This document shows positions 9,734-38,557 of a DNA stretch of 64,000 bases, piece by piece. Positions within the stretch are counted from its first letter, which is position 1, and every line of letters begins with the position of its first letter. The notes under the pieces were generated by a model. That model was not told where the DNA came from, ran no database searches, and was given only the letters and a program-made list of their open reading frames with translations. The translations under genes and the position numbers were made by a program. Origin of the DNA: Colwellia sp. D2M02 (GTDB taxonomy: Bacteria; Pseudomonadota; Gammaproteobacteria; Enterobacterales; Alteromonadaceae); contig NZ_JAHKPW010000089.1 in the NCBI RefSeq assembly GCF_018860755.1, positions 1 to 64,000 of the forward strand. Direction: 5' to 3'.

Positions 9734-9734
9734 A

Positions 9735-17473: not shown

Positions 17474-18346
17474 TTAACAACCAGGTGCTATTGCTAAACC
17501 TTCTGTACTGTGAAGTGTTTGATTGTTTTGTAAATAAAGCTGATATTCTGCGCCTGAAAGTGAAGCACTTTCAGAACAGTCCACATTCCAACGCCTTAAT
17601 AGATAACCTGCCATTGCAGCTCTAACATCTAATTTGAGCACGCCATTTTCCATTCCGTAATCCATTTTAATGGCGGTTGGATATTCAACATTCTTAGGGT
17701 GCGGGACTATTTCAAGTGGCATGATTGTATTCCACTGTTCATCTTGAACCTTAATTTCATTCACTTCAGGCTCGTTATTAATAACCGTTACTTTGGCAAG
17801 GCGTGTTAATACAAAGTCTCTAAACGCATTACTCTTTCTGTCATAAGCTCGAACATGCCAACGAAGACCATTATCAACAATAGTGTGTGGTACTAATTCA
17901 CGAGCACCAGAGCCACTTGAAAGTGAGGTATAGATAACACTTACTGCTTTGCAATTAATCATAGCTTGGGTCAGTTTAGCGATAACGTTGATATCAGGTA
18001 CGTTTAGTTGGCTTGGTTGCTCAACCGGAAATTCGACATCACCTATGGCATCAAAGCCATCAGAGATTTGATGTGCAAGCTTAACTAGCGTGCGCTTAGC
18101 ATCATGTGTAAATAATGGTTTGAAGCTATTAGTTAGAAAGTATTTCTTTTGGGTATTGTTATACGCCATGTTCTTTGGCGCATGCTCTTTATAGAGGTTG
18201 ATATCGCGTGTAGCGGCAGAAACACCAAGCTTGAAGTGCTGGACAATTTCGGAGCGTGTAACGCTACCGGTAAAATACAACTTAAAGTCAATATAGGCGA
18301 GACGCTGCTGTTGAGCGTAGCTTAACTTTTCCAATTGATTGTCCAT
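17474..18346 (-). CDS. WYL-domain transcriptional regulator (BrxR/CapW-like)
   Basis: The 290-residue protein has an N-terminal winged helix-turn-helix (about 8-60, including TRSEIVQHFKLGVSAATRDI), a linker, a WYL domain (about 125-205) and a C-terminal dimerisation region. This matches the BrxR/CapW group, homodimeric repressors at the head of phage-defence operons (family knowledge). It is the first gene of the leftward restriction operon. Two similar 20-base repeats lie 45 and 96 bases upstream of its start and are the likely operators, which implies autoregulation of the whole operon and release by a ligand of the WYL pocket. No BREX genes are present. Confidence 0.85.
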   Translation of the reverse strand: MDNQLEKLSYAQQQRLAYIDFKLYFTGSVTRSEIVQHFKLGVSAATRDINLYKEHAPKNMAYNNTQKKYFLTNSFKPLFTHDAKRTLVKLAHQISDGFDAIGDVEFPVEQPSQLNVPDINVIAKLTQAMINCKAVSVIYTSLSSGSGARELVPHTIVDNGLRWHVRAYDRKSNAFRDFVLTRLAKVTVINNEPEVNEIKVQDEQWNTIMPLEIVPHPKNVEYPTAIKMDYGMENGVLKLDVRAAMAGYLLRRWNVDCSESASLSGAEYQLYLQNNQTLHSTEGLAIAPGC

Positions 18347-18865: not shown

Positions 18866-19486
18866 ATGAGTATGAAACGAAGAGTATTAGGTAAACAAAG
18901 CGCAGTAAGAAGCACCGTAACTGGTTACAACAACAATCTTAAAACAGCAGTACTACTAGAAAGCACCCTTGAAGTAGATTACTACCGAATGATGGAATTT
19001 ACCTTGCCCGAAGGTGCCACACTTGAGATGCAGCCAGAGCACATAGAGCTAATCATTGATGGCAAGAGAATACGTTACACACCTGATGCGAAGATTACGA
19101 TGCCAGATGGACGCATTATCATGATTGAAATCAAGTACGAGAAAGATATTCACAAACCTAATATTAGGCAAAAACTCATCAAAGCGAAGTGGAAATATGC
19201 ATCAATGGGTTTTCAATTTGATGTAATGACGGAAAGAGAAATACGTAAAGGCCATCAAGCAGAAAACTTTTCTCACTTGCTTGCTGCGCTGCACCACGAC
19301 AAGCCTGTAGATGCATTTCATTTGTTAGTGAGCGATCTACCAACGCAACAGTATTCTATCAAAGAGATGATTGAAATAGCTTTTAGCAAAGGTATGAGCG
19401 AATCAATCGTGAAAATTTCGATGGCTCATATGTTGTTTCAATGGGATACCACGTTAGCTTGGTCTGATATTCGTTTAAGCTTTTAA
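18866..19486 (+). CDS. tnsA: Tn7-like transposition endonuclease TnsA
   Basis: The 206-residue protein has a TnsA endonuclease domain. Candidate catalytic residues are a Glu in LESTLEVDYY (about 32 or 36), Asp in YTPDAKI (about 74) and Glu/Lys in MIEIKYE (about 88 and 90). The C-terminal part (about 110-206) is the helical TnsC-contact region. TnsA cuts the 5' ends at the element's tips so that transposition is cut-and-paste (family knowledge). It is shorter than Tn7 TnsA (273 aa) but the core is complete. It opens a rightward operon with tnsB 11 bases downstream. An in-frame ATG two codons later is an alternative start. Confidence 0.9.
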   Translation: MSMKRRVLGKQSAVRSTVTGYNNNLKTAVLLESTLEVDYYRMMEFTLPEGATLEMQPEHIELIIDGKRIRYTPDAKITMPDGRIIMIEIKYEKDIHKPNIRQKLIKAKWKYASMGFQFDVMTEREIRKGHQAENFSHLLAALHHDKPVDAFHLLVSDLPTQQYSIKEMIEIAFSKGMSESIVKISMAHMLFQWDTTLAWSDIRLSF

Positions 19487-19497
19487 GGAGAATTCAA

Positions 19498-21429
19498 ATG
19501 CTCAACCCTGCAATCAATATCCTGCGTAAAGCCGGAACATTAGTTAGATTTAATAATTTGTTAGCGCGAAGTCACCCTGTTGGCCCAAACTATATTGCTC
19601 TTAACTTTGAAAATGATGAAATTCCACCAGCAGTGCTCTCAGACATTGAGTTGGACGAGGCTTATGGCAGAGAGTTAAGCCTTGTTCACGATAAAAAAAC
19701 AACACCTAATCACGCAGTAACGCTTACACCTAAGCAAAAAACCAAACTATTTAAGATACAGGCTTATTTGGATACGCTTTATGAGATTGGGGGTCGAAAA
19801 GACATCATTGGGGGGATCAAGTTACGTGAAAAAGTAATAAAAATAGCATCCAAAAGATTGAATGATGAATCCCCACCTTCACCGGCACAACTTGCTATTT
19901 GGGCGCAAGAGCAAAGAGATTATGTTGGCGGTGTTTGTGCAAAGGTTTCTACCGCCGTAAAAAATAAGCGAATGTCTAAGTTTGACGAAATACAAGCGTT
20001 TGCCATTGAGGTTGCCGATGAGTTCATTTTTGGAAAATTCACTTCTTTCCAGTATTTTTACGATATGTTTGTAACAAGAGCAGAGAAAAGATTTAAGACT
20101 CTGCCATCTCGTGAAACCGTTAGGAAATGGTTAGAGCAAATAATCTGCCCTAAAAAGAGACTGAAAGGCCTCAATAGAGCCGAGCGACGAAGAGAGCTTC
20201 GAAATGCCATTAAAAAATTCAAAACAACAAGGCCTTATGAACGTTTAGAAGCTGATGCATGTAGTATGCGTGTTGGTGTTAGGGATGATGAAGGAAATTA
20301 TCTCGGACAAGCCACTGTTATTTTTTTTCTTGATGTGCATACCAGAAGTGTCGCTGGATATGAATTACATATCGGTGCTGGTGAGCCTTCATCTTCTGTC
20401 GTTAGTGCATTTAGGCATGCAGTATGTAAAAAAGAGCCTGGAACTTACCACACTTTACGAAACAATTATTGGTATTGCAGTGGCCCTCCTGAAAAGGCCG
20501 TTTATGATGGAGGTGCAGGCTTCATATCAAATGAAACGCAATCCTATATGAAGTTAACTGTTGGCACACTGGTTGAGACATTAGCTTCCTACAGCCCTTG
20601 GTTAAAACCTTTTGTTGAGCGATTTATTTATACGTTTAGAACAAATTGTGAGGCAAGGCTCCCAGGTTATGTTGGCAAACAAAAAGACCAAGCTAAACTT
20701 GAACATAAAATAGAAGAAAGAGCCCATCTCACTGTCGATGAGTTACGAAGAGCTATCGAGTCATGGATTGTTGATGAATATCATCATAAGCCTCATTCCG
20801 GCATAAATGGCTTAACGCCCTACCAAGCATGGGAAAAAGCTAGAAAAGAATGCCTTTTACCAGTAGATGTAAAAGATGAATATAAAATTCGTTTACCCAA
20901 AGGTAAAAAACGTGAAGCGACTATCTCTGGTGACGCTTTTCACCTAGGCGTAACTATTAATCGCCTTAAATACAATGATGATGACGGAAGGCTTAAAGAG
21001 ATTGGAAACTGGCTGGCCCAGACTAACCAGCCTAGGAAGGTCACTTGTTATTATTCCGATTGTGATCTTTCAGCAATTACTGTTCTTTGCCCAAGAACAC
21101 TTCATGAATTTAAAGTCCCTGCTATTGATGAAAATATCAAGCCAGGTATGTCATTAATAGAATTCCAAGCACTAAAACCTTCAGCATACAAAAATAAAGG
21201 ATTTAGCCATTATAGAACGATGGAGGATAACCCTGAAATGGTTAAAGCTCATGAGGCTGTGAATAAAAAGGTTGGTAAAAAGAAAACAACTAAATTGAGA
21301 AGAACCTCTATTGAGAATATTCAAAATAACATCGACACCTTGACTATTGAGAATTACAAGCCCACTGACATTGATCCCTACGTTGACGAGATAGATTGGG
21401 ATGATATTGAACCACTTCCACAATCTTAA
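19498..21429 (+). CDS. tnsB: Tn7-like DDE transposase TnsB
   Basis: The 643-residue protein has N-terminal DNA-binding domains (about 60-230) and an RNase H-like rve transposase core (about 240-440). The acidic triad is visible: Asp in RLEADAC (about 253), Asp in VYDGGAGF (about 337) and Glu in KPFVERF (about 374). The spacing of the last two is close to the D-35-E pattern. The C-terminal mu-type beta-barrel follows (about 470-540), then a charged tail that would contact TnsC. A good ribosome site (AAGGAG) precedes the ATG. TnsB binds the GATC-N6-TTARCTTG sites at the ends and joins 3' ends to the target. The DGG in place of the common DNG is minor. Confidence 0.93.
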   Translation: MLNPAINILRKAGTLVRFNNLLARSHPVGPNYIALNFENDEIPPAVLSDIELDEAYGRELSLVHDKKTTPNHAVTLTPKQKTKLFKIQAYLDTLYEIGGRKDIIGGIKLREKVIKIASKRLNDESPPSPAQLAIWAQEQRDYVGGVCAKVSTAVKNKRMSKFDEIQAFAIEVADEFIFGKFTSFQYFYDMFVTRAEKRFKTLPSRETVRKWLEQIICPKKRLKGLNRAERRRELRNAIKKFKTTRPYERLEADACSMRVGVRDDEGNYLGQATVIFFLDVHTRSVAGYELHIGAGEPSSSVVSAFRHAVCKKEPGTYHTLRNNYWYCSGPPEKAVYDGGAGFISNETQSYMKLTVGTLVETLASYSPWLKPFVERFIYTFRTNCEARLPGYVGKQKDQAKLEHKIEERAHLTVDELRRAIESWIVDEYHHKPHSGINGLTPYQAWEKARKECLLPVDVKDEYKIRLPKGKKREATISGDAFHLGVTINRLKYNDDDGRLKEIGNWLAQTNQPRKVTCYYSDCDLSAITVLCPRTLHEFKVPAIDENIKPGMSLIEFQALKPSAYKNKGFSHYRTMEDNPEMVKAHEAVNKKVGKKKTTKLRRTSIENIQNNIDTLTIENYKPTDIDPYVDEIDWDDIEPLPQS

Positions 21430-21439
21430 GGAGACACTA

Positions 21440-22495
21440 ATGGTAAATGTTTCAACGGTTCTGCCATTTGATTTAAATACTAACATTTCTAAACGTATAG
21501 CTTTAAAGAAGCTACCACATAACGTAAAAGAGCTGAGGTTCAGAACTTATTTGCATAATGATTTTTCTAATGCGTTAGCCGGCCTGCGAGAGACATTCGC
21601 TATGTCTGGTTTTGAATCAACGGGTTGTACGTTATTTGGTGACCCCGGTGTTGGAAAAAGTCGCCTGATTCGTTATTTCGTTACAGAAATTTATGCAAAA
21701 CCTGAATACAAACCAACGAAAAGCGTAACGCCAATTCCAATCATTTCAATTCGAGTTCCAGGAAAACCAACAATTTCTAGAATTTGTGAGCAAATATTAA
21801 AATGTACACAAAAACATTATAAGCCCCCTTCTAGGGATGGTGACTCAATTATGCTGAGAGTTTCTCGTGTGTTGCAATATTTAAACATTGAAATGATCAT
21901 CTTTGATGAATTTCAACATTTGTTAAGAAAGCACGCAACAATAAGTACTGCCGATGCTGTTGCATTCATTAAAGTGCTCATGGATGAGCATGGTTTAAGT
22001 GTTGTTTTTGCAGGCCTACCTGAAGCTCAATCATTACTGGAAGAACACCCTGAATTATCACAAAGGATGAGTTTTGCAAAAGTAGATCTACATGAGTTTT
22101 CTCTTAAAAAAGATGGACCGTGTAATTTAAAAGATTTTGCATTGTACATTAAAAGCATTGAAGTTAACTTCAATGAATTGGGAATAACTATATTTCCATT
22201 ATCTAATAAAAATATGCTTGTACGCATATATTTAGCAACACTGGGTAACCCAAGGCGTATTGGCCAGTTATTTACTCGTGTTATGTTGAGATACCATGAT
22301 AAAAAACAGATAACAAATCAGGAGTTTCAACAAGTCTTTAGTCAAATGCCTTTTAATAAAATGAATGGTTTTAATTTATTTACTGAACCACAGACCTCAG
22401 TTAAAGCTTCTTTTGAGCGTTTGCTTAAAATGCAAAGAAAGGAGTCTTTAAAGGAACATAACCAGCACAGACTAGGTTCTCGTCAAGGTGATTGA
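21440..22495 (+). CDS. tnsC: Tn7-like AAA+ regulator TnsC
   Basis: With the ATG at 21440, preceded by AAGGAG, the product is 351 residues. An earlier in-frame ATG at 21401 lies inside tnsB and has no ribosome site. It is an AAA+ ATPase with Walker A GDPGVGKS (about 67-74) and Walker B MIIFDEFQHLL. The sensor region and a C-terminal lid follow. TnsC bridges the target selector TniQ and the TnsAB transposase and enforces target immunity (family knowledge). It is compact compared with Tn7 TnsC (555 aa), more like the TniB-type proteins of Tn5053- and CAST-like systems. The motifs are intact. Confidence 0.92.
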   Translation: MVNVSTVLPFDLNTNISKRIALKKLPHNVKELRFRTYLHNDFSNALAGLRETFAMSGFESTGCTLFGDPGVGKSRLIRYFVTEIYAKPEYKPTKSVTPIPIISIRVPGKPTISRICEQILKCTQKHYKPPSRDGDSIMLRVSRVLQYLNIEMIIFDEFQHLLRKHATISTADAVAFIKVLMDEHGLSVVFAGLPEAQSLLEEHPELSQRMSFAKVDLHEFSLKKDGPCNLKDFALYIKSIEVNFNELGITIFPLSNKNMLVRIYLATLGNPRRIGQLFTRVMLRYHDKKQITNQEFQQVFSQMPFNKMNGFNLFTEPQTSVKASFERLLKMQRKESLKEHNQHRLGSRQGD

Positions 22496-22496
22496 T

Positions 22497-23744
22497 ATGT
22501 TGGTTTTACGACCTTACCCAAAACCCACTGAGCGCCTTAACGAATACCTTATACGGCTGTGTTATGTAAATGGCTTTTTTAAAATATCTGAGCTTTTAAG
22601 TGTTTTAGGTATGCGTCCAGTTAAACAAGCCCAAATGGGCCAATGGGCTCCGCATCATCTCAAAGCGCTTAATGAAGTGCTCACCAAAGCCCTTGGCAGA
22701 CCTTGTGATGATGTTATTGCGCTTCATAGTCGTAATGACTCCGATAAATGGCTGTTTGGTTATGACAGAACGCTAGCTGAGCTGATTGTCGATTTCCCAA
22801 GAATTTGCGTACATTGTGTTAATGAAGAAAAAGCCATGGATTGGCGTTGGGCGATTGGCACTGCTGCACGATGCCCAAAACATTTAACGCCTTTAATTGA
22901 TAGCTGTCCTCATTGCGATAAGCCTCTTATGTGGGATGCCAATATTTTAGAGTTTTGCCCAAAGTGCAAAAAGTCTTGGGATATAACTGGTACTGAAGTA
23001 GTTGAGCCTTTATCTCAATTGGAAAAGGATTTATGGCCAGCTATTGATGGCAATATCAATGTGACTGAAAAACAACTGCAAGAGTTAACCTACGCAATGT
23101 ATATGGCGGCTCGCCCTTTTGATGTGATGATTCAGCGTTATGGCCGCATTCCTTTTAGCCGAAATCATTATCAGCTTGTACTTAATGGTTTAGCCCTACT
23201 CACTAGTGAAGACTATCGAAGTAAGTGGGTTAAAGCCTGTCAACGCTACTGGAAAAACTACCCAGGTTATATTAATCCCGTTCGTTTGTTTTTAGAAAAT
23301 GTTGAAATAGTTGATACTGGCGTAAGTTGCCAATCTTTTGGTTTTAACGAGCGCACTGAATTCATTCAAAAAGCACGAGTCCAGTATGTTAAGGATAAGG
23401 ACAAGGACCAGCCAATCTACCATGTTGATATCTTTTTATTAGCAAAAGCCCTGAATTTGAGTGTAAGTGACAGTACGATTTTGTTTGAAGCTAAAACCTT
23501 TCCTATGGTGAATAAATCCTTTGTGGGTAATCATAAAATGATGAAGTCTAAGATATTTAATATCAAAGACATTATCAAAAAGGTAAAGAGTTTCGCTAAA
23601 GGCCCTAAAGCTCATACAAGTTATACATGCATAACTGAAAATTCAGCATCGCTTGTACGCCATTTATGCCAATACGGTGATGTGGTTAATGCTCTGTCCT
23701 ATCAAAACAGATTCACGGTTATTTCAACGATGCGTTTGATTTAA
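22497..23744 (+). CDS. tniQ: TniQ/TnsD target selector, N-terminal 415 residues before a frameshift
   Basis: This frame encodes a TniQ domain beginning LRPYPKPTERLNEYLIRLCY, then a zinc-binding region (CVHC, CPKH, CPHC, CPKC at about 100-170). The ATG at 22497 follows the tnsC stop by one base; a GTG at 22488 is an alternative. The frame ends abruptly at 23744, but the next frame continues a plausible protein (NDAFDLSEVYIDKAM and on). One missing base in the A-run at 23704-23707 would join the two into about 496 residues, close to TnsD length. So tniQ is probably frameshifted here, by mutation or sequencing error. If real, site-specific targeting may be lost. Confidence 0.85.
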   Translation: MLVLRPYPKPTERLNEYLIRLCYVNGFFKISELLSVLGMRPVKQAQMGQWAPHHLKALNEVLTKALGRPCDDVIALHSRNDSDKWLFGYDRTLAELIVDFPRICVHCVNEEKAMDWRWAIGTAARCPKHLTPLIDSCPHCDKPLMWDANILEFCPKCKKSWDITGTEVVEPLSQLEKDLWPAIDGNINVTEKQLQELTYAMYMAARPFDVMIQRYGRIPFSRNHYQLVLNGLALLTSEDYRSKWVKACQRYWKNYPGYINPVRLFLENVEIVDTGVSCQSFGFNERTEFIQKARVQYVKDKDKDQPIYHVDIFLLAKALNLSVSDSTILFEAKTFPMVNKSFVGNHKMMKSKIFNIKDIIKKVKSFAKGPKAHTSYTCITENSASLVRHLCQYGDVVNALSYQNRFTVISTMRLI

Positions 23745-24681: not shown

Positions 24682-27600
24682 TTACATCTCATTATTTTCA
24701 AAATATTCATTTAAAATAGCCATTGCCATTTTATTTTGACGTTCAGCCATGAGTCTTATTATTCGTAACAGTGCTCTTTGTGTTACAGGCGGAAGTTTAT
24801 TCAACTCGCCAATATCATCCAAAACCAATTTAACCAGTAAAACGAGCTGTTCTTCAGCGTTTTTATCGGTTTCATTTGAATACCACGTTAGCTCTTCCAA
24901 ACAGGTATCAATCCATGTCAGCCCTTGATGTCTTATTTCAAATGCACTACGGGTTCTTAGAAAACGTAGTAACTTAACTAATGAGTCTAGTGATAATCTT
25001 TTTGACGCATGTACATCAAGATGGTTACTCATTCCTTTAACAATATCAGCATGCTGTTCATTCCAAATAAAATCAATTATTATCTGATTCAAGCCAAAAA
25101 TAGCATCCCAAATATCCTCTAAATACCTTTTGCTTCGATCAATTTGTTGCCAATTTTTATTGCTCAGTGCAAATTGAATCATCTCGTTCCAATGTAATAA
25201 AAACACTGAACTGTCTGTTTTTTCATCATTCAACGCAGAGAACCATTCATAAAAGAAATCATCAATCCAAAGGTGTGCTGACGACCCCAACTCAAGTAGA
25301 GGTTGCCACAAGCTTCTAGCCTCTTCAGTGCTGTCACAACTTAAGATGATGCCTGGTAATTTTCCTAGTAACCATTTATCAAACTCATAAGGCATCCCAT
25401 CAACTTCATCAACTTTCTGAACACCATAATCCATTTGCCATAAAATAGTTTGACTACACTGTTTCCAAAAGCTCAACCAATATGATTTTTCGGTGGAATT
25501 GATGGCCCTATCTAATGTTGGTAACCAATCATAGACACGCTTTATAACGGCAAAGTCAATACCTGTTGACCGAAGATGTGCTTTCCTCTGGCCATATTCT
25601 TCGCTTATATAGATCTCATTAGAAAAAGTGTGATCTAGTGACTTCCAAGCAGGTATTTCAAAAGCTAAAGTTCCATCAATGAATTTATGAAAATAGTTAT
25701 TAAATTCTGAATAGAGCTGTGCAACAGATAGCTTTTCTTCTCCATGTATCTCATTTGAGGCTATTAAGATCCTTTCTCTATAAACAGCCCAAACTGTCGC
25801 TAGGTGAATTAATCGATAAAAATCGTCTCCAAATTCAGCTCGCTGATCAGACACTACATTAAAGAGTCTCTCAGTCGTCTCATAGTGAAAGCTAATACAC
25901 AAGTGACCTATTGCAGCTCTAATATCTTTATCGTCCCGATACTCTATCCACATGAAGGGGATCACATCTGCGCAAAATCTATCCCATTCAAAATCCATAG
26001 ATGATTCAGCAATACGCAGATCCATTTCTGGCTGCTCAAAAACACAGCCTAATATAGTCTGATAACACCATTCTTCATATTCTCCCCATATATCATTAAG
26101 TTGATTTTTATATGTATATAATACTGCTGCCAAAGCGCATTTTGTTCTCACCAGTTGTAATTTTCTATCAACGTCAGCGTCTTTAAACTCCAGTTTGGCG
26201 AATGTCTCCAAAGGACTTATCATATTTTCTGAGCTAGGCTCCGTCCCCTTATCAATCAGTTCTCTGCATCGCATTGGAATTACTAAGAGTGATTGCGTAA
26301 TTTCATTCTCCTGACTTTCAGCAGCCCATTTATCCTCTAAAACTTTAGGGGGAGTATATATAAGGCTATATTTATGCGATTCGACCTTTTGATAGCCCCA
26401 GTTTGACAAATCTAATTTGTGTAACAAATTAAATGTTAAAGGATAATAGGGGTTCTCTTCTGCTGTTTTATCCAACCAGGATTTAAATGCAGGGAGTACT
26501 TTAGAAGTAACTGTTTTTTTAAACGCCTGATCTTCTATCATCATTGGCAGTATTAAACTTTCAATGTCTGTTTTTCGGTAATCTCGTAAATGCCATGCTT
26601 TAGCAGCATTGATTTCTCTTTTAGTTTGTCGATGAGAAAAACCTATCATCTGATGTCCTTCGCTATCTCCAATATGGTAGAAGTCATAGTTAAATAGTTC
26701 AGGGATCCTAAGAAAGTCAGCGCAAACCCCTTTAAAGAGTGGAGTCGATTTTTTAGCCAATTGTAAACAAACACCAACTATGGCCATAGAGTGACTATGG
26801 GTTAATAAATGATTAATATCATCACTAATATCCTGGTCATCATCTACTTTATCTGACAACCACTTTTCTAAGGCCATTAACGCACATACCAATAGTTTCG
26901 GTGGCGGAACTGTAGCTCTACAAGCATACATCCACCGACGTTCACCAATCCATGTTTTTGTTTCCCCGTTTAACTCAATATCTAACGTCAAAAGGAGGTT
27001 TTCATTGGCAATTGACTCATGGCCATTCAATTTTTCCTGCTCTTTGTCCTCTAACCATTTATTAGTCGCTATTTCGGTTAGCCTTAGTATTACTCTCATA
27101 CCTTCATTTGGGGATACGGATAACAAATGAAAAAATGGACCTTTATCGAAAGAAACAGGAAAAAGATTCAGGTTATCAACCAAACCATATTGTTTGTCTC
27201 TTGATGAATGGAAGCTGGAGAATCGCTTACCACCTTCTCTTATACATAATGCCAAGATGATAATTGCCGCCTTATCAGCTTTTTGTACAATCAAAGGCAA
27301 TGAATGCATGGTATGTAAAAAAAAGTACCTGAAATCCCCATCAACAGAGAAAACAGGCCCATCTGCTGATGATGGGAAAAACACTTCCTCCCCATAGATA
27401 GTATTCATTTCTAACGATTGAGCCTCTAATTCTTCAATCCTTTTTAGCCATACGGGATCGGTAATTGGTTCAGGTGCTGGATCTGATGGTAAGGCTGTTG
27501 TTGGCTGGGCCAAACCGCTGGCACAATAGGAAAGCTTGACAATATCATCCATATTTTCATGTGATGCAGTAAAAGCAGTTTGATAAAAAAATGGCGCTTT

Positions 27601-29982
27601 TTCATCATCATAATTTAGCCAACGATTGTTATCATGCGAACGACGATGCTGATTGTGTTGTAGTGCTTTCCAACCCATTTTAATAGCCATATCGGCTAGA
27701 GTTTTTCGATAAAGTGTACTTTTTGGAGTGTGCCTTAGCCATGTTTGACAAATCTGCGCAGTTTGGCTCGGTACCAACTGAATAAATTCGCTTTGTTTAG
27801 ATTCTATTACAGTCAAAAAACCGTACCAATAATTCATTATTGGACGTCTATTCCAAGTCATGGCAGCTAAAGAGTCAGCACCTAACTTTTCCGTTAACTT
27901 CATAGTTAACGGATCGGGTTGAGTTGCAACGAATAGAAACCGTTTTAAGAGTCTTTTCAATAAACTGGCTTTATCATTAATCAGTTCAGGCCAAAGCCTT
28001 GTAATGATAACTCCAGGTTGGGATGAGTAAATAATAGATTCAAGTAACAGATCAGTAGTTAAAAACCATTCTTTATTTGCAAGTGATGTTTTGATCAACT
28101 TAAACCAAATACTCGTGTCTTGGTCTTTTTCTAAAAGATGGAGCCCTAATAATGTAATGGCTCTGTACCAACTAGGCAGGTTTATTTTGCTGAAAAGGTA
28201 CTCCTGATCCTCTTCCAAGTTCATCCATAGCACTCTTTGCTTGAACCAATCCAAGAAAAGGTCATGGGAAAAACTTATACGCCCTTTATTTCTTTGGCAA
28301 ATACCATCTTTTTCTAAGCCTTCTAATACTATTAAATCAGCGGTAGGAAATTTTGTACTTTTTATTGATGATAACAATGTGTCTGCTAATTTTTCAGCCA
28401 GAGTTAATGAGAAAGCTTCTCGCATTGCACCATCACTCTTATCGGTAAACTCAGCCTGCCAATACCACTCGATTAAATCAGCTTCACTTGTCCATTTTGA
28501 TGTATCTGGAAGCTGAACGAAACCACTGAATAGATCAATGATTTTGGGCCGTTTAAGTAATGGTTGTAATCTGCTTGATTGAAATATTTTACCAAACTGT
28601 GGAAAAATAGAAATTACTTGATTGATTTCGTCTTCAGTAAAATTTTCAATTGTAAACGGTTTTGCTTTGGTAATTTCACCAATATGATTAATAAGACCAC
28701 GTTGTAATGTTTCCCAACGAGATTCTTGGCAAGTTATAAGTAATTTGAAATTTTTCCGAAGTAACAGTGGTTTGAGTAATTGCCCTGCTGTTGCATAGTA
28801 GTTATCGCTTATACGGTCAAGACCATCAATCACTACAAGATAATCATTAAAAGGTAGATGTTCAACCAAATCAGACCATTGGTGCTCTATGTTAAGTTTT
28901 TTGGCAGCTTGGTTAAGGTTTTTACTCTCAAGAAGGTAGCTATCAAGCCAGAGTGTCTTTCCGTTAAACTCATTATGCGCAATTGATTTTGCCAATACAG
29001 ATTTACCAGCTCCAGATTCACCAACCATAACGATTAAGGGATGTTGTTTGAGTTCAGCTTTTAACTTGTTTCGTAACACAAACCTGTCAACAGCAAGACG
29101 GCCACCGATTAAATGAGGTAAATTATCTTGTGCATTCTGGCTATACTTTTCAATAATATTGATATCATTAAAGTAGTTAGGATAGCCTTTGAATGAAAAC
29201 TCATGACTTAATTGATGAATAAATTCTGTATTATTTAGTGAGCCTTCGTTCACTCTGGTCGATTTAACCATCAGGTGTAATCGGTCAAAAAGGTTCTGCG
29301 CTAACCCGAGCTTAGGATCCTTTAGAGCATTCTGACAATTCAATAGTGACTGACTGAAGTCATTGGATTGTTGCTCATGTATATCTGATGAAAATATGAC
29401 AAGCCTTTTAAGTAAATTATCATGATCGATAGCTTTAACTGAATGGTTATCTTTCAAATCACTTGGACAAGAAAAACTGTTATATAAGTCAGTTATATCT
29501 TTTGAAAATTGTCCGTCCTTCATCTTGACCGATAATTCATCATCGATTGAGTGCTGGACTTTACTTAATAGTGAATTCAAGGAGTTTTTTGCTGCACCTG
29601 ATAATGGGCTGGTAATAATGCCTAGATAGTCATATTTCCTATCAAACAGTTTATTGCCATCATAATGCAAATAATGACGCCAAATGGCCTCTACGAAATC
29701 GACAGGCGCTTTTTTGGCTGTAAACTGCTTATTACTTTTGATCGAAATTGCACAATTAACGTCTCGGCCATGTTCTTTTAGTGTTAACAGAATATCATCT
29801 AGTAGCCAGCCAATGTTTCCGACTTGGAAGCTGATTTTTTTTATCTCACCCGTGCAAACCGAAGAAAGCGGCAATGCGCAGAGCATACGACTGGATAACC
29901 AACTAGCCACAAGGTCTTCAAAATCAAATCCTTTACCGCTGGTTAATTCTGAAGGAGCCAGATAATACGGGTTTGTTTTCAC
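24682..29982 (-). CDS. Avs-like antiviral STAND NTPase with N-terminal nuclease-like domain
   Basis: The 1766-residue protein has a Cap4/DUF4297-like nuclease region at the N-terminus (Glu about 22, WLLDDILL with Asp about 62-63, and AISIKSN with Lys about 82). A STAND-type P-loop NTPase follows, with Walker A GESGAGKS (about 321-328) and Walker B YLVVIDGLDR (about 381-390). More than 1000 residues of helical, probably TPR-like sensor region follow. This order and size fit the Avs family, which detect phage proteins directly and activate a DNA nuclease (family knowledge). The usual E/Q in the (E/Q)xK motif is Ser here. It is a single-gene unit, transcribed towards the tns operon. Which phage protein it would sense is not evident. 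Confidence 0.8.
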   Translation of the reverse strand: MKTNPYYLAPSELTSGKGFDFEDLVASWLSSRMLCALPLSSVCTGEIKKISFQVGNIGWLLDDILLTLKEHGRDVNCAISIKSNKQFTAKKAPVDFVEAIWRHYLHYDGNKLFDRKYDYLGIITSPLSGAAKNSLNSLLSKVQHSIDDELSVKMKDGQFSKDITDLYNSFSCPSDLKDNHSVKAIDHDNLLKRLVIFSSDIHEQQSNDFSQSLLNCQNALKDPKLGLAQNLFDRLHLMVKSTRVNEGSLNNTEFIHQLSHEFSFKGYPNYFNDINIIEKYSQNAQDNLPHLIGGRLAVDRFVLRNKLKAELKQHPLIVMVGESGAGKSVLAKSIAHNEFNGKTLWLDSYLLESKNLNQAAKKLNIEHQWSDLVEHLPFNDYLVVIDGLDRISDNYYATAGQLLKPLLLRKNFKLLITCQESRWETLQRGLINHIGEITKAKPFTIENFTEDEINQVISIFPQFGKIFQSSRLQPLLKRPKIIDLFSGFVQLPDTSKWTSEADLIEWYWQAEFTDKSDGAMREAFSLTLAEKLADTLLSSIKSTKFPTADLIVLEGLEKDGICQRNKGRISFSHDLFLDWFKQRVLWMNLEEDQEYLFSKINLPSWYRAITLLGLHLLEKDQDTSIWFKLIKTSLANKEWFLTTDLLLESIIYSSQPGVIITRLWPELINDKASLLKRLLKRFLFVATQPDPLTMKLTEKLGADSLAAMTWNRRPIMNYWYGFLTVIESKQSEFIQLVPSQTAQICQTWLRHTPKSTLYRKTLADMAIKMGWKALQHNQHRRSHDNNRWLNYDDEKAPFFYQTAFTASHENMDDIVKLSYCASGLAQPTTALPSDPAPEPITDPVWLKRIEELEAQSLEMNTIYGEEVFFPSSADGPVFSVDGDFRYFFLHTMHSLPLIVQKADKAAIIILALCIREGGKRFSSFHSSRDKQYGLVDNLNLFPVSFDKGPFFHLLSVSPNEGMRVILRLTEIATNKWLEDKEQEKLNGHESIANENLLLTLDIELNGETKTWIGERRWMYACRATVPPPKLLVCALMALEKWLSDKVDDDQDISDDINHLLTHSHSMAIVGVCLQLAKKSTPLFKGVCADFLRIPELFNYDFYHIGDSEGHQMIGFSHRQTKREINAAKAWHLRDYRKTDIESLILPMMIEDQAFKKTVTSKVLPAFKSWLDKTAEENPYYPLTFNLLHKLDLSNWGYQKVESHKYSLIYTPPKVLEDKWAAESQENEITQSLLVIPMRCRELIDKGTEPSSENMISPLETFAKLEFKDADVDRKLQLVRTKCALAAVLYTYKNQLNDIWGEYEEWCYQTILGCVFEQPEMDLRIAESSMDFEWDRFCADVIPFMWIEYRDDKDIRAAIGHLCISFHYETTERLFNVVSDQRAEFGDDFYRLIHLATVWAVYRERILIASNEIHGEEKLSVAQLYSEFNNYFHKFIDGTLAFEIPAWKSLDHTFSNEIYISEEYGQRKAHLRSTGIDFAVIKRVYDWLPTLDRAINSTEKSYWLSFWKQCSQTILWQMDYGVQKVDEVDGMPYEFDKWLLGKLPGIILSCDSTEEARSLWQPLLELGSSAHLWIDDFFYEWFSALNDEKTDSSVFLLHWNEMIQFALSNKNWQQIDRSKRYLEDIWDAIFGLNQIIIDFIWNEQHADIVKGMSNHLDVHASKRLSLDSLVKLLRFLRTRSAFEIRHQGLTWIDTCLEELTWYSNETDKNAEEQLVLLVKLVLDDIGELNKLPPVTQRALLRIIRLMAERQNKMAMAILNEYFENNEM

Positions 29983-30051
29983 TTTAAATGCATCCTTGAT
30001 TTTATTGTTTGAGTATAAATTATGGATATATGTTTAAAAAATATTGTCTGA

Positions 30052-31068
30052 TTAAGTTTCATCAAAACTAGAATCAATCGAGGATTTACAGATCTTTTGT
30101 TGTATCTCTTCCACGGTTCTTGTTTTACCGCCATAGTGAATCACTGCATGGCAATTAGGACATAAAGGGATCAGATCATTCTTAGGATCAACTTCATATC
30201 GGCTATTTACCTCTGAAACCGGAGTTAAATGGTGGACATGAATATAGCCATAGAACTCATTCCCATAAATCTCTCCAAAATCAATATCGCATACCTTACA
30301 TCGAGATCCGTGATGTTCGATACAGGCGAGTCTCGCTTTTTTGTTTCGTTCATATTTATTGACTTGGATAGTGCGCTTAGCACCTTCCCACATTTTGTCA
30401 GTAGTTTCTTCAGCCAGAGAAATAGTATCGTCTACTGACTTAGCAATGACAGTAAACTTTAATTTTTCTAAGATAGGTCTTACCGTATCATTTCCACCAC
30501 TAAAGTCATTAGACTCAAGGGGGTTACTAAATTGATAACCGAATGCGGCTCCGAATATGGCTTTAGAGTCATATTGTTTCCCTTCATACACTAGGAAAAA
30601 TTGACGTGCTTTCCCAAAACCATACTTAGATAAAAACTCCTTTCTTCCTACTGAGTCAAACTCATCAATTGCTTTTATAACTGCATTTCTACTCGTCAGT
30701 TCTTTGTAGTTAGGTTTAATTGGTAATGCCCCCTCTATGCTCTGTTCTGTGTTTGAGTAAGAAAGACTAAGCCAAGGTTTGCAACTACCACACTCTTTTG
30801 AAAAACGACCGCTAGCATCTCCTTCGTCTTTTGCCCACTGTCGTACTTCGTTGATATTGACAGAACAAACTTTAATATAATTACGCTCCGTAAAGCCACC
30901 TTGTTCTGCGTTTCCTTGTTGCGCTGTAACATACGAGCAATTAGCTGTGTGTAAAACCCTATAATCTAATGGTTTACTTATAGATGTGTTTAAAACAAAT
31001 CCATCTTTGTTATCGCGGAGCCAATTCAGATATCCCTGTTCATCATTAATGAATTCTATGTATTTCAC
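30052..31068 (-). CDS. HNH endonuclease with McrA-like N-terminal domain
   Basis: The 338-residue protein has an unassigned N-terminal region (about 1-110, with a CGSC pair). A middle domain (about 120-210) resembles the N-terminal head domain of ScoMcrA-type enzymes (YDSKAIFGAAFGYQF, then NDFSGGNDT). At the C-terminus is an HNH domain (about 245-325): CKVC, HVHHLTPV and CPNCHAVIH. ScoMcrA cuts modified DNA, so a type IV restriction role is possible (family knowledge plus inference). The start overlaps the HEPN-like gene stop by four bases (ATGA), so the two are translationally coupled and may work together. Confidence 0.82.
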   Translation of the reverse strand: MKYIEFINDEQGYLNWLRDNKDGFVLNTSISKPLDYRVLHTANCSYVTAQQGNAEQGGFTERNYIKVCSVNINEVRQWAKDEGDASGRFSKECGSCKPWLSLSYSNTEQSIEGALPIKPNYKELTSRNAVIKAIDEFDSVGRKEFLSKYGFGKARQFFLVYEGKQYDSKAIFGAAFGYQFSNPLESNDFSGGNDTVRPILEKLKFTVIAKSVDDTISLAEETTDKMWEGAKRTIQVNKYERNKKARLACIEHHGSRCKVCDIDFGEIYGNEFYGYIHVHHLTPVSEVNSRYEVDPKNDLIPLCPNCHAVIHYGGKTRTVEEIQQKICKSSIDSSFDET

Positions 31069-31811
31069 TTATTAGATCCTTTATCTGCATTACGTTGATA
31101 CATATTGTTAATAATTATAGAAATATCTTGAAAATAGCATAAAACATCGTTGTATAACGACTTTGAACCATGCGCAAAACTATTTCTAATGCCAGGTAAG
31201 GTTTTACAAAGCATGGCAACGTAATCCCATTTTACATCATACTGAGATTCGTCTATTTCACTGTCGTCCCATTCGTATTCTTGTAAGTTTTGATCTTCCA
31301 TTATTTTAGAAATCTTCTTTCTATAGACGTTTTCTGCTTCTAGTTTGTTTCTGTTATGCCACATTGGAAAGTCACTATTAACTATCAATCGACGGTCTTT
31401 TAGGTATTGCATATAAATACTTAAGCCAGCTCTTGGCCCACGGCCATTACGTTGTTTACTTTTGATGTACCTTTTGAGTTCTTCCTCACCAATACATTCT
31501 TTAATTGATAGCTCTAAAACTGAATATAATTGCTGTTGGGCAATATTGTAAAAACGATAAACGTGAAAGGCATAAAGATAAAGGTTTCGGGCAGTATCAT
31601 ATTGTGTAGTTATTTCTTCGGGTACTTTAGAGTCGAGTTTAAACAGTTCAATTTCATTAAATAATGTTTCAACTGAAGTCACACCAAAATAATGATTTCT
31701 TACATCGGCTGCCCCCATATTAATAGGTGTTCTAAGACAGTCCGTTGGGTAAACTAATTTGCTTGTAGCGTGTTGTTGTTGGTCTTTTATTAGTTCTAAA
31801 TCGTTATTCAT
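31065..31811 (-). CDS. HEPN-like protein paired with the HNH nuclease
   Basis: The 248-residue protein is mostly helical. Near the C-terminus it carries PGIRNSFAHGS, which matches the R-x4-H motif of HEPN ribonucleases and the RNxxAHG style common in that superfamily. No other domain is recognised. The 3' end overlaps the HNH gene by four bases, and 21 bases separate its start from the second HNH gene upstream. It may be an RNA-cleaving effector or an oligomerising partner of the HNH protein; HEPN assignment rests on this motif and the helical pattern. Confidence 0.6.
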   Translation of the reverse strand: MNNDLELIKDQQQHATSKLVYPTDCLRTPINMGAADVRNHYFGVTSVETLFNEIELFKLDSKVPEEITTQYDTARNLYLYAFHVYRFYNIAQQQLYSVLELSIKECIGEEELKRYIKSKQRNGRGPRAGLSIYMQYLKDRRLIVNSDFPMWHNRNKLEAENVYRKKISKIMEDQNLQEYEWDDSEIDESQYDVKWDYVAMLCKTLPGIRNSFAHGSKSLYNDVLCYFQDISIIINNMYQRNADKGSNK

Positions 31812-31832: not shown

Positions 31833-32981
31833 CTATTGTTTGAACCTGCTTTCACGGTGAAAAGCTAAGTAATCTTGGTGTTGCTTGGCGAGCAGAACAT
31901 TCATATCTGCATGTATGCCAAGCGCTTGGTATTCTTCTAGGTGATCGGATATCAATATTCTCCCCCGATCATCGAAACTGATATAACCTAAATCAAACGC
32001 TTTATCGATATTGGCCAGGAGCAATAATCCATTGAATGGATCTAAGCGCTCTTCATTGTCTGATTTAGACCACGGTTTAATATGTGACGCGATTAAAAAC
32101 GAGTAGTTTTGAAACTTAGTTACTGCACAGCCCTGCCAATGATTAATTAAATCTTCTCTAAATCGTCCTTGCCCTACACGGGTATTTACCATGACAGCCT
32201 TTTGCGTATCAGGAATAGTTTTATCTAGGATGATTTCATCAATGTCATGTTGTACTTCAGCTTGCGTGATGTCTGATAAAAAGGCTCTGTAGCTTTTAAT
32301 GGCCGCGCTATACATGCCATTGCCACGTTTATCTTTTTCAACAAACTCTCGCACTTCATAAGTCTTACTGACGATATTTTCGTACTCCACAAACGAGCCA
32401 ACGCTAAGTAAGCTTTGTTTAGTTACACCGGCATCGTTTAACCAATTAGGAATAGAGTTTTTCAGCGCTCCCACATAGTTCTTAATGGTTTTATCTGACT
32501 TACCAATGGATTTAGCCCAGCGACCATATTGGTCTTCGAGTGTATCTAGGTTTGCTGTTAACGCATTTCTTAGTATCGGCGCTGTGTTTGGACTTTTAAG
32601 GAAATCAAAAAGTGCTTCATCAAGGTAAGCAAAGTTAACAAGCTTACGTATATTGGCATCTGTTGCTGATTTCTTTTTTATTGATTCAAACGCTGGTTTA
32701 TTTTCATTTGATACGTCTAAGTGCCAAAGCCCTGAAGACTTTAAATGATAAAACGGTAAGAACGGGCTATCAGCGTCATTGCCTTGTTTTAATCTTAAGA
32801 AGTGCCAGCTAAAGCGCTTCTTCAGTGTTTCATCATAGTAAATACGGTTATCTTGGATATGACCTTGTTCGATTAAGTCCATAACAGCAAACATCATACA
32901 AACCTTATGAGGCTTGGCTCTGCCAGATGATTTATCTGGCCTAATGCTTTGAAGTTTGTCGTTATAGAATGCCAGTGTCAT
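31833..32981 (-). CDS. HNH endonuclease (HNH_2 type)
   Basis: The 382-residue protein ends in an HNH_2 domain (about 265-365): GRFREDLINHWQGCAVT, ASHIKPW, then ERLDPFNGLLLLANIDKAFD. The N-terminal 130 residues resemble the DNA-binding region of similar restriction-type HNH proteins (RWSxHFLRLKQ-like segment), and the middle is helical. It is an annotated-type defence nuclease of the kind found alone in islands. Four bases separate its start from the upstream cold-shock/excalibur gene, so the two share a transcript. Substrate unknown. Confidence 0.85.
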   Translation of the reverse strand: MTLAFYNDKLQSIRPDKSSGRAKPHKVCMMFAVMDLIEQGHIQDNRIYYDETLKKRFSWHFLRLKQGNDADSPFLPFYHLKSSGLWHLDVSNENKPAFESIKKKSATDANIRKLVNFAYLDEALFDFLKSPNTAPILRNALTANLDTLEDQYGRWAKSIGKSDKTIKNYVGALKNSIPNWLNDAGVTKQSLLSVGSFVEYENIVSKTYEVREFVEKDKRGNGMYSAAIKSYRAFLSDITQAEVQHDIDEIILDKTIPDTQKAVMVNTRVGQGRFREDLINHWQGCAVTKFQNYSFLIASHIKPWSKSDNEERLDPFNGLLLLANIDKAFDLGYISFDDRGRILISDHLEEYQALGIHADMNVLLAKQHQDYLAFHRESRFKQ

Positions 32982-32984
32982 TAG

Positions 32985-33521
32985 TTAAAACCTTGAGTCG
33001 TTTTCACAAGGTATACCATCATGGTCACCATCCATTTTTGTATTAGGACAATGTTTGGTGAAGAACTCAGCTTCTGCACGAGATGTCATTTGGCTGCAAT
33101 GCTGGCGTCCATCACAGGTAAAGTGCTGTGTTGGAGTAATCTTTGTTGGTATTGACGTTGGTGTAAATTGTGTTTGCGGTGCTTGGTTGCTTTTACCTAA
33201 ATCAAGGCGCTGAAACGTGAATGCAGCGATAGCGACAATGACGGCAGCATAGATAAATTTATTGCCTGAGCGAGGTTTATAATTTTTTGAAACCTTAAAG
33301 GATGAATTAGCTTTTACGCTTTCAATACAAGCATTGGTCGCTCTAGACTTCCCTTTATGCTGCTCAACATCAAAATGAATGAAGTCGCCTTGCTTAGGCT
33401 TTCTGCTCATATGCTTGAGCGCAGAGATATGAATGAAGGTGTCTTGCTTTAATTCAGAACACTTTATAAAGCCAAATCCTTTGGCATTGTCCCACTTTGT
33501 TAACTGACCTCGGTACATCAC
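32985..33521 (-). CDS. Cold-shock domain, membrane segment and excalibur domain protein
   Basis: The 178-residue protein has an N-terminal cold-shock domain (about 1-68: GQLTKWDNAKGFGFIKC and DTFIHISAL), a single transmembrane helix (about 87-103), a Pro/Thr-rich linker and a C-terminal excalibur calcium-binding motif (DGDHDGIPCE, about 164-173). The topology would place a nucleic-acid-binding domain in the cytoplasm and a calcium-binding domain outside. This combination is known in gammaproteobacterial genomes but its role is unclear. It lies upstream of the HNH gene in one operon. Confidence 0.85.
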   Translation of the reverse strand: MMYRGQLTKWDNAKGFGFIKCSELKQDTFIHISALKHMSRKPKQGDFIHFDVEQHKGKSRATNACIESVKANSSFKVSKNYKPRSGNKFIYAAVIVAIAAFTFQRLDLGKSNQAPQTQFTPTSIPTKITPTQHFTCDGRQHCSQMTSRAEAEFFTKHCPNTKMDGDHDGIPCENDSRF

Positions 33522-35528: not shown

Positions 35529-37586
35529 CTAAGAGGCACTAGATAGTTTTGCTAGATATAGCCTAGAGCGAGGAGAAAGGTTTAGTTGAGCTTTAGGCTC
35601 TTTTATTTTAGTTATCAATTCATTAGCGATAACCGTATCCATCTCAAAGACAAATCGTGTAGCTTCAATTTCCTTTTTTGGCGTTGAAGACCAACCTTTT
35701 CGGTTCCAATCATCCAAGAGTTTATCTTTAGGGACAATTAGGTGTAAATGCTTAATTGCTCTGGTTATTGCAACATAAAATAGCCGCCTTTCTTCTTTAA
35801 GTTCATCATGAACCTTCGTTTGCAAAGACGCTAATTCTTTGGGTACTGATGGTTCATTGCTTATCCCTGGATAAGCGTTATCTTCTAAGCCGATGATGAT
35901 AACGTTATCCCACTCTAAGCCTTTAGAGCCATGCATAGTAGTTAAATGGTATTTCACATTATCTTCTTGATATTCTTTTGGCGTAATTAGGATAGTTAAT
36001 AAATCAGCAATCGTAATTTGGAAGGTATTCAAAAGTTGCAGCATAAAGCTAATACCGCGTAGTTGATCGTTTGATTCTCTACGCAGAATTGATGATTCAC
36101 TAATATTTGAAAATAGGTCCTTTTCATTGATGAATTTGTACACTTCTGAGGCATCATCTTCAGCTTTAAATGAATTCTGTATATCTTTAAGTGAATTAAA
36201 TATCTTGTGGTTAAGTCTATGTTTTAAATCGACAGAATCTTTAATGACTTTATAAAATTGCGTTTTATCCTTTGTAATGGCCTCAGTTAACTCATTGAGC
36301 ATACCTTTTGGCAACCTGAATCCAAGCTGTTTGAGGAAATTCTTTATTAACGGTTTAAAGCTTTTAATTGGACTTACTCTATTAAAGTCACCATCTATGG
36401 CTAAACACATTAATAACGCAAATAGTGTAATTTCAGGTCGGGAAACAAGTTTTTGTTTAGATGTCTTTACGCTATAAGGCAAGTTTAGTAGTTGAAGAAC
36501 AATCTCCGGCTCTATAAGGTCCGCATTAGACCTTGCAATAATAGCAGTAGAGTCAGTTGTCGAGTTTTTTTCACAATACTGGATAATTTTTAGGAGATTC
36601 CCTCCTTGGTGAATTGAAACTTCTGTATCAGCATTGTTAGGATGACTTATACAAAAACTATCATCTGAATAGTTATTATCAACCTTGTTTTTACTAATAA
36701 CAGAGTTAGCGACATACGCCAATTGGTGCCCATATCTAAAGGTATATGATAGGTTGTAAACTTTGCTTTCTTTAAAGTCTCTTTCGAATATTCCCTCAAT
36801 AAAATCAGGACGACTGCCTCGCCACTCATATATGCACTGGTTAACATCTCCGACAACCATTACGCTTGTACTTTGCTGAGTTATTCCTTTTATTAATTCA
36901 TTCTGTATGTAATTAACATCTTGATATTCATCAACAATTACTTGGCTAAAAATTGGAGTTGGGAATTGATTAGAACGAAGTAATTGAACCGCCTCAATCA
37001 ATGAATCATCAAAGGTTCTAAGGTTATATTGCTCCAATAACTCACAATACTTTCGGTATGAGCGTTTATTGTTTGTATCCACATCTTTGTAGTTAGGGTC
37101 ATTTTCTAAATCATCAGGCGTCAATTCTTCTAAGCGCCAGTTTGAAATGTTTAACTCTAACTTCTCGATATCATTATTATCAACGTAACTACCTTCGATT
37201 TGATTTCCGAATAAGTAGCACTCTCTTAATAAACCTTGGTATTTATAATCTTCCGGCCTGAGGAGTGTTTTTCGCTTTATTAATTTTGATTTTTGCGCTT
37301 CTTGAATTAACTTAAGAGCATAGCTGTTGAATGTTCTTACTTCTGGAGAATAGGCTAAGTTATATTTGCTAATCGCAACGTTTAGTTTATCTTGAAAACT
37401 TACTTGTGCAGCCTTGTTGTACATTAGGATAAGTATGCTTTGAGGGGGAATGCCTTTCGTAAGCAAGTTAGTAACACGCATTATCAATGTAGTTGTTTTA
37501 CCACTACCAGGTACGGCTTTAACTAGTGCATGACCATGGATATGCTCTGCTATCTTTCTTTGTTCTTTTGTTAATTTCTTACTCAT
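35529..37586 (-). CDS. UvrD/Rep-family ATP-dependent helicase
   Basis: The 685-residue superfamily 1 helicase shows motif I (VPGSGKTTT, about 25), motif II (VDEYQDVN), motif III (GDVNQCIYEWRGS), motif V (TMHGSKGLEWD) and motif VI (RRLFYVAITRA). It unwinds DNA with 3'-5' polarity by family. Its start overlaps the CoiA-like gene's stop by four bases, so the two form a coupled helicase-nuclease pair in the same operon. It is not the chromosomal UvrD or Rep by context. Confidence 0.92.
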   Translation of the reverse strand: MSKKLTKEQRKIAEHIHGHALVKAVPGSGKTTTLIMRVTNLLTKGIPPQSILILMYNKAAQVSFQDKLNVAISKYNLAYSPEVRTFNSYALKLIQEAQKSKLIKRKTLLRPEDYKYQGLLRECYLFGNQIEGSYVDNNDIEKLELNISNWRLEELTPDDLENDPNYKDVDTNNKRSYRKYCELLEQYNLRTFDDSLIEAVQLLRSNQFPTPIFSQVIVDEYQDVNYIQNELIKGITQQSTSVMVVGDVNQCIYEWRGSRPDFIEGIFERDFKESKVYNLSYTFRYGHQLAYVANSVISKNKVDNNYSDDSFCISHPNNADTEVSIHQGGNLLKIIQYCEKNSTTDSTAIIARSNADLIEPEIVLQLLNLPYSVKTSKQKLVSRPEITLFALLMCLAIDGDFNRVSPIKSFKPLIKNFLKQLGFRLPKGMLNELTEAITKDKTQFYKVIKDSVDLKHRLNHKIFNSLKDIQNSFKAEDDASEVYKFINEKDLFSNISESSILRRESNDQLRGISFMLQLLNTFQITIADLLTILITPKEYQEDNVKYHLTTMHGSKGLEWDNVIIIGLEDNAYPGISNEPSVPKELASLQTKVHDELKEERRLFYVAITRAIKHLHLIVPKDKLLDDWNRKGWSSTPKKEIEATRFVFEMDTVIANELITKIKEPKAQLNLSPRSRLYLAKLSSAS

Positions 37587-38557
37587 ACTTCTACTACTTT
37601 ATAATACTTACAGACTTTGGCCTCTGTGTAAGGAACGCTACTGTGTTTTATTGTGCAACTAACTTGTCCATCGTCCCAACCTGAAGCATTAGTACATTTT
37701 AAACAATTGGAATAGATGTTTCCTGGATCCATTTCTTTTACTAAATTGATTATGCTTTCCGTCTTAATACGCTTATCTAGAGCAACCGGCCAACAATTGT
37801 TAAGCGAAAGATCGTCTTCTGATAGATGGTTAAACGGTTTTTCGAGTTTGTTTAAACGACCACTGGCACTCAGAGTCCAAGTTTCAAACTTGTGAGAGGT
37901 TAAATTACAGTTTTGATGGCACTCTTTAACTGATTTTTCTTTTGCGCTGAAGTTATATAAGGAGATGTTAATATCGTTGATAGAGAAGTCAGACTCTTGA
38001 ATATACTTAATATCATTTTCATCATTCACTGATATTTCAATGATTGGAATACCAGAAGCAATCTTTTCTTCCGTGCATTCATGCGTAACAAAAATTTCGA
38101 TATAACATTTGCTGTCATTATCAGTATTAACCAACATGACATCTGGGGTGAAACCTGTGCTTTTATCGTATAGCTCTAAAATCGCTTCATTAAATAAACT
38201 TCTTAGATTGTATTTGGCTTCAACTAAATTAGTACAACTAATACTGTCATCCTGTAAAAATGATTTCTTTTTACTCTGGCAAGTTATAGCTCGTTTCAGA
38301 ATAAGGGCTATAGGGTCTTTAAAATCATTAAACCTATTATAAAAGGCATTTTTAGCGGCATTGTGAAGGTAGCTTTCGTAACTACAAGTCGCATTATTAT
38401 GACGAAAATGATGAACGTTAAATTTACCTTGGACCGCGACCATTTCTTCACGACAACCAGGACAAGTGTATGAGTTATGCTTTATAACATTTGATATGTG
38501 GGTCAACATACCTGAGCAATCATTCGCATAGGCGTACTGGGCAGAAGAAACTACCAT
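37583..38557 (-). CDS. CoiA-like nuclease paired with the helicase
   Basis: The 324-residue protein has an N-terminal zinc-ribbon (CPGC about 32-35, then HHFRH and C about 58), as in competence protein CoiA. A PD-(D/E)XK-like core follows (TPDVMLV with Asp about 139, YIEIFVTHE with Glu about 154). A second Cys cluster (NCLKC) occurs near residue 286. CoiA domains are nuclease-like and act on DNA in competence or defence settings (family knowledge). It is the first gene of the leftward pair with the UvrD helicase. Confidence 0.75.
   Translation of the reverse strand: MVVSSAQYAYANDCSGMLTHISNVIKHNSYTCPGCREEMVAVQGKFNVHHFRHNNATCSYESYLHNAAKNAFYNRFNDFKDPIALILKRAITCQSKKKSFLQDDSISCTNLVEAKYNLRSLFNEAILELYDKSTGFTPDVMLVNTDNDSKCYIEIFVTHECTEEKIASGIPIIEISVNDENDIKYIQESDFSINDINISLYNFSAKEKSVKECHQNCNLTSHKFETWTLSASGRLNKLEKPFNHLSEDDLSLNNCWPVALDKRIKTESIINLVKEMDPGNIYSNCLKCTNASGWDDGQVSCTIKHSSVPYTEAKVCKYYKVVEV

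Follow-up and report, generated by a model that had tools for sequence, protein, structure and literature searches.

The window analysed here, a 64,000-nucleotide stretch of a Colwellia sp. D2M02 contig (NZ_JAHKPW010000089.1, positions 1 to 64,000), carries a gene for a large STAND protein related to Avs4, and this gene adjoins tnsABC-tniQ homologues (18866-23744) of the kind that Tn7-like transposons carry (Table 1). A 1766-residue frame had been drawn at this place in a first, sequence-only reading made without database searches, and the frame proved sound; its strand, unstated there, is minus. The start codon is preceded, 10 bases upstream, by AAGGA.

Table 1. Features of the Avs4-like gene and of the genes on either side of it (positions are those of the window)
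Feature	Position	Strand	Basis
TnsA-like endonuclease	18866..19486	+	Pfam PF08722, E 1.3e-6
TnsB-like transposase	19498..21429	+	Pfam rve_3; PADLOC TnsB, E 4.1e-18
TnsC/TniB-like ATPase	21401..22495	+	Pfam TniB, E 3.8e-21
TniQ-like target selector	22488..23744	+	Pfam TniQ, E 4.2e-8
Avs4-like STAND protein gene	24682..29982	-	1766 codons, GTG start, internal stops absent
Helical sensor, residues 601-1766, homologous to Avs4 sensor	24685..28182	-	Sensor-only hhalign
Sensor stretch matching NCBIfam Avs4 model positions 755-1061	26323..27228	-	57.2 bits, E 4.2e-16 (search of this genome)
NTPase to early-sensor stretch matching NCBIfam Avs4 model positions 184-660	27676..29106	-	41.6 bits, E 1.5e-11
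NACHT/STAND NTPase and winged-helix region, residues 291-600	28183..29112	-	Pfam, alignment
Walker B, VVIDGLD, residues 383-389	28816..28836	-	Sequence and alignment
Walker A, GESGAGKS, residues 321-328	28999..29022	-	Sequence and alignment
Predicted PD-(D/E)XK-like N-terminal nuclease domain, residues about 1-130	29593..29982	-	Motif residues, PDC-M54A match, dN/dS
S80-I81-K82, variant of the (E/Q)xK motif	29737..29745	-	Alignment of 15 N-termini
D62-D63, predicted metal-binding acidic residues	29794..29799	-	Invariant in 15/15 N-termini
HNH endonuclease gene	30052..31068	-	Pfam HNH; 69 bases upstream of the Avs4-like gene

A second copy of the gene, on a contig of a Colwellia MAG (L001), is 91% identical over residues 1-1761, and at the DNA level this contig matches window positions 24684-30777 with 91.9% identity, the match stopping at the stop codon of the Avs4-like gene. 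Comparing the two copies gave a dN/dS of 0.195 for the whole gene, with values by stretch of 0.117 (residues 2-130, the lowest of the six stretches compared), 0.222 (131-290) and 0.133 (291-600), followed by 0.37, 0.261 and 0.152 in three successive parts of the sensor. The gene is under purifying selection, and the closely similar Colwellia copy together with the low whole-gene dN/dS therefore marks it as a conserved gene and not a chance frame.

Comparison with related genomes places the gene in a block that is likely foreign. Three relatives (L075, L076, and L077) keep the gene at 17474-18346, after which DNA homology stops at 18392, 18420, and 18416; the next gene in common lies at 34348 (L075, L076) or 32985 (L077), and all three are without a block of about 14.6-16 kb, so that an insertion of foreign DNA of this size is likely here. 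Two others (L078 and L079) have the gene at 17474-18346 and parts of the left side in common with the window, with no long match rightward. Tn7-like transposons have paired ends with TnsB-site repeats, and a 5-bp target duplication, around their cargo. Here, repeats were seen on the tnsA side only: TGTCAATA occurs at 18425 and again at 18518, and a near copy follows at 18762. No convincing counterpart was found on the far side, and a scan for a target duplication and terminal inverted repeats returned only chance-like pairs. The first reading had called the gene transposon cargo, and this stands in part: the adjoining tnsABC-tniQ genes and the block missing from three relatives speak for it, but because paired ends and a target duplication were not found, we regard the gene as likely cargo only. 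Separately, two 20-base direct repeats at 18391 and 18442, 90% alike, lie where homology to the relatives ends and may mark the tnsA-side end of the transposon.

The encoded protein is ordered as a nuclease-like N-terminal domain, a STAND NTPase with a winged-helix region, and a sensor some 1166 residues long; this effector-STAND-sensor plan is also that of Avs2, Avs3, and Avs5. Pfam NACHT matches residues 317-457 (E 1e-6; 29.1 bits, cut-off 26.7), and the nucleotide-binding motifs are intact: in an alignment of 23 sequences used for column conservation, from which L052 was left out, G321, G324, G326, and K327 (Walker A), D386 (Walker B), and H573 and D574 (the winged-helix HD motif) are present in every sequence. 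The STAND NTPase read from the letters was thus confirmed, and the NACHT match, together with the alignment of N-terminal motifs described below, supports the Avs-like architecture proposed with it. The sensor of more than 1000 residues was likewise as predicted in length; its helical nature comes from a second predicted model (three sequences), mostly helix and of low confidence (mean pLDDT 48.0). Foldseek with that model retrieved mostly large helical-repeat proteins, with the EcAvs4 structure (8DGF) absent among the best 50 of 548 rows, a result that we consider uninformative.

Homology to the Avs4 sensor was detected with the sensor on its own. With everything before residue 600 removed, hhalign aligned a 4-sequence profile of the window's clade to Avs4 with a probability of 99.5% (E 1.7e-22, 974 columns) and a 7-sequence profile with 99.8% (E 1.2e-30, 973 columns), and even the window protein with only its L001 copy reached 96.6% (E 4.8e-10), aligning around residues 887-1314. 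Reversed Avs4 gave 0.1%, and five other large or STAND control proteins gave at most 0.5% in 15 comparisons, these being single sequences and hence weaker controls than profiles. In searches of the PDB, one profile (A2, E 1.1e-141) was rejected as independent evidence for Avs4 because it contained a true Avs4 (L051), and the search was therefore repeated without Avs4 (alignment A9 leaves out L051 and L052); a profile of 16 relatives free of Avs4 then had 8DGF as its best match (E 1.6e-40), covering the NTPase and mid-sensor, and matched Avs2 (9O4E) in the NTPase only. For a 4-sequence full-length profile, 8DGF was absent among the best 60 of 70 rows (E <= 1; 60th at E 0.43).

Model searches in the other direction agreed. 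An Avs4 model of seven sequences (L051, three proteins annotated avs4, and three relatives that are unannotated and 23-34% identical to L051; the Avs4 set contains one near-duplicate pair, L058 and L059) scored the window protein at 112 bits over residues 269-754 and 923-1314, while under E 10 it matched no reversed sequence and one of 200 shuffles (E 5). Searched with the NCBIfam Avs4 model at E <= 1e-10, this genome gave only the Avs4-like locus and 14 control genomes gave nothing; relaxing the limit to E <= 10 added one match of 12.3 bits elsewhere in the genome and brought matches in 11 of the 14 controls. The relation to Avs4 appeared only when relatives were included or the whole genome was searched with the model, since scans with the window protein alone named no Avs family and specifically yielded no Avs4 match at E <= 1 in PADLOC or at E <= 0.1 in NCBIfam.

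How close this relation is can be judged from a tree of the NTPase and sensor (24 rows, midpoint root, L052 on a long branch, composition varying in many rows). The window gene falls in a clade of seven rows (100/100), comprising also Colwellia L001, Geminocystis L006, Paraburkholderia L007, Aromatoleum L008, viral contig L041, and L045, and the Avs4 set forms a separate clade of seven rows (100/100), with nine rows carrying a QxK motif outside both. Two relatives with broken frames (L010 and L046), plasmid matches H6-H20, and the relatives in G814 and G953 were left out of the alignments. The window protein shares with Avs4 itself (AVAST type 4) a homologous STAND NTPase, winged-helix HD motif, and long helical sensor, but its best-scoring stretch (57.2 bits) falls well short of the 1500 bits set as equivalog cut-off for that family (NF041815). 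Judged by these comparisons, the window protein is an Avs4-like branch and not Avs4 in the narrow sense. The proposed clustering with the Avs types, which reportedly go back to Gao et al. 2022, was therefore borne out for one type, Avs4, by NTPase and sensor, but not for others: the NCBIfam Avs2, Avs3a, and Avs5 models had no match in the window's genome at E <= 10. The Avs1c model, of 63 positions, did not match either, a result with no bearing on the Avs1 STAND protein. EruA (NF058535) has a similar NACHT NTPase (E 1.7e-5), with the match confined to residues 311-489.

Two members of the clade differ in layout. The copy in L045 is spread over two frames about 1 kb apart, a nuclease part (7596-8108) and an NTPase-sensor part (9180-13892), and may be interrupted or split, and the Geminocystis plasmid relative L006 (5821-10635) has NTPase and sensor without the nuclease part. 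In addition, the Colwellia contig L001 holds a second STAND-like gene at 13189-16107 with a QLK nuclease-like start, seen by eye.

Because the sensor lies in the Avs4 lineage, a concrete candidate trigger, the phage portal protein, can be named. According to PMC12931631, Avs1-4 nucleases cut phage and host genomes upon recognising terminase, portal, or Ksap1, and by homology the window protein would probably be triggered by portal and kill by DNA cleavage. The first reading had left room for a phage protein not yet linked to any Avs type. This is now disfavoured, because homology to the sensor of Avs4, whose trigger is the portal protein, extends over nearly the whole length of the window protein's sensor, and it keeps some standing because the two sensors are remote. 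In one such reading, the sensor of an Avs4-like STAND nuclease would have switched to another conserved phage protein, an alternative that we hold to be possible but unlikely: the sensor's distance from Avs4 (own clade, 57 bits, about 15% identity to L051) leans towards it, yet homology runs along 974 columns, mid-sensor included, so that a shared ligand is the simpler guess.

Portal sensing stays the preferred reading of the sensor. As to the effector, the first 130 residues hold a helix Glu, then DD, then (S/Q)xK; a conserved Glu, an Asp, and (E/Q)xK in this order are the signature of PD-(D/E)XK nucleases. D62, D63, and K82 never vary across the 15 N-termini aligned, and 13 of these keep the helix Glu, with Ala in its place in L043 and L053. 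Two positions before the Lys, Ser stands in six N-termini (window, L001, L007, L008, L041, and L045) and Gln in nine, and this choice goes along with a second one, Asn two after the Lys in all six Ser forms and Arg directly after it in all nine Gln forms. The Ser that had been noticed in place of E/Q is therefore real, and its presence in 6/15 N-termini with a linked Asn argues that it is a trait of the clade and not local decay.

In family searches at E <= 10, none of the 15 N-termini matched a nuclease family of Pfam. In PADLOC, DUF626_VIII matched 10/15 (best E 1.1e-21), two models of the candidate system PDC-M54A matched 6/15 and 4/15, and HamA matched one (E 0.014). The window protein's own N-terminus (300 residues) matches PDC-M54A at residues 17-289 (E 1.9e-5), and the whole protein gave no match to the PDC-M54A models at E <= 0.01. 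With hhalign, the clade's N-terminal profile, in which the domain is present in 5 of 7 rows (L006 and the frame used for L045 being without it), aligns with the QxK relatives (98.0%, E 1.5e-13), whereas no relation to the Avs4 N-terminus was detected by this profile (0.3%), the QxK relatives themselves reaching 2.8% against Avs4. A structure prediction aimed at the nuclease fold (three sequences) did not resolve it (mean pLDDT 37.7), and both predicted models are too poor to show the nuclease fold or the sensor fold. Motif conservation, matches to PADLOC candidate models, and low dN/dS together suggest a PD-(D/E)XK-like nuclease.

PDC-M54A probably corresponds to a "mid" clade (L009, L042-L044, L047-L050, and L053), which has its NTPase and sensor lineage in common with the window protein and an N-terminal nuclease homologous to it, but which carries QxKR where the window protein has SxKxN and lies outside the window's clade in the tree. 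With NTPase and sensor homologous to Avs4 and the nuclease not detectably so, this looks like one NTPase-sensor lineage that carries different nucleases. It is conceivable, if doubtful, that the window's clade amounts to an Avs type of its own, in which an Avs4-related sensor has moved to a new phage ligand and, in members keeping it, a Ser-x-Lys-x-Asn nuclease differs in chemistry or substrate from known Avs nucleases.

Less probable still is a defence STAND protein whose nuclease has degenerated, so that the N-terminus would not cut but act by binding, either to DNA or to a partner such as the product of the upstream HNH gene. Such a reading would account for the Ser in place of E/Q and for the HNH gene adjoining the Avs4-like gene in the Colwellia relative too (L001, where the gene runs off the contig; the 242 aa compared are 83% identical). 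Against it, however, stand the invariance of D62, D63, and K82, the lowest dN/dS of six stretches in residues 2-130, and the sharing of Ser among six N-termini, as well as the HNH gene's own distribution: of 22 loci searched, only the Colwellia one yielded an HNH relative, and on this count the HNH gene was rejected as part of the system.

Relatives of the window protein are sparse. Protein searches found them in 20 of 72,556 plasmid records, none of 50,697 phage records, and one viral contig, with no additional relatives in further viral-contig scans; by genome, they occur in 3 of 369 in the class (own included, one by NTPase only) and, at E <= 1e-6, in 4 of 246 in the family (own included). 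A profile search of the phylum matched 165 of 398 genomes at E <= 0.001; among the matches listed, those in 12 genomes (own included) were long and the others were short NTPase matches. For 18 relatives scored at E <= 0.01, the Avs4 models of NCBIfam and PADLOC each matched 13 and three PDC-M54A models matched 8, 6, and 1; one of the 18 is L051, the true Avs4 (2088 bits). Genes beside the plasmid relatives include integrases, transposases, restriction genes, and NACHT genes. It is highly improbable that the protein is a STAND regulator unconnected with phage defence, in view of its homology to Avs4, the PDC-M54A matches of some relatives, the mobile and restriction genes around the plasmid copies, and the sparse distribution in the family. 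In the open-licence PMC literature, judged by title and abstract start, we found no paper on this clade, and none was found there on EruA with NACHT or on PDC-M54.

Taken together, we think it moderately likely that the window gene encodes an antiviral STAND protein akin to Avs4, from a deep branch, which combines the NTPase and sensor of Avs4 with a different nuclease and would work by portal recognition and DNA cleavage. The resting protein would be inactive. When portal protein is produced during infection, its monomer would be bound by the long helical sensor, as it is by the TPR domain of EcAvs4; the NTPase would bind ATP and the protein would assemble into an oligomer, and oligomerisation of Avs proteins on activation is mentioned in PMC12799240. 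Clustering would then activate the putative PD-(D/E)XK-like domains, which may cut phage and host DNA, and the infected cell would die before phage release.

What is new here is a protein whose sensor is in the Avs4 lineage and whose nuclease is not detectably so. To our knowledge, the case for portal sensing by STAND proteins comes from Avs4. Should this branch sense portal as well, portal recognition would span proteins that are about 15% identical and have swapped effectors, and the sensor columns kept in at least 20 of 23 sequences, which include P942, P949, L1038, S1065, D1100, and R1136, would be candidates for what matters in recognition; if it does not, the branch would offer a close outgroup for how sensors change ligand. 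Either way, its members are easily overlooked as defence genes, because annotation of the plasmid relatives goes no further than AAA ATPase, NACHT, or hypothetical protein.

Several genes further along the window are of separate interest. Between two HNH genes, the minus-strand gene at 31065-31811 encodes an RNSFAH stretch, which we take to be a HEPN-type Rx4H motif, and is possibly a HEPN RNase gene; its protein had zero Pfam matches and PHROG matches only near E 0.06. The gene at 31833-33521 (minus strand) encodes an HNH_2 nuclease that matches a phosphorothioate-DNA restriction model at E 5e-12, below the cut-off, and begins three bases after a gene with cold-shock and Excalibur domains. 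At 35529-38557 (minus strand), overlapping genes for a UvrD/GajB-like helicase and a CoiA_N/DruB-like protein look like a two-gene defence unit. Finally, an operon-like run on the plus strand (38910-45524) encodes a SLOG family protein, a weak DUF4915 match, a polysaccharide deacetylase, an asparagine synthase with glutamine amidotransferase, and an M20 peptidase, and is perhaps a small biosynthetic cluster.
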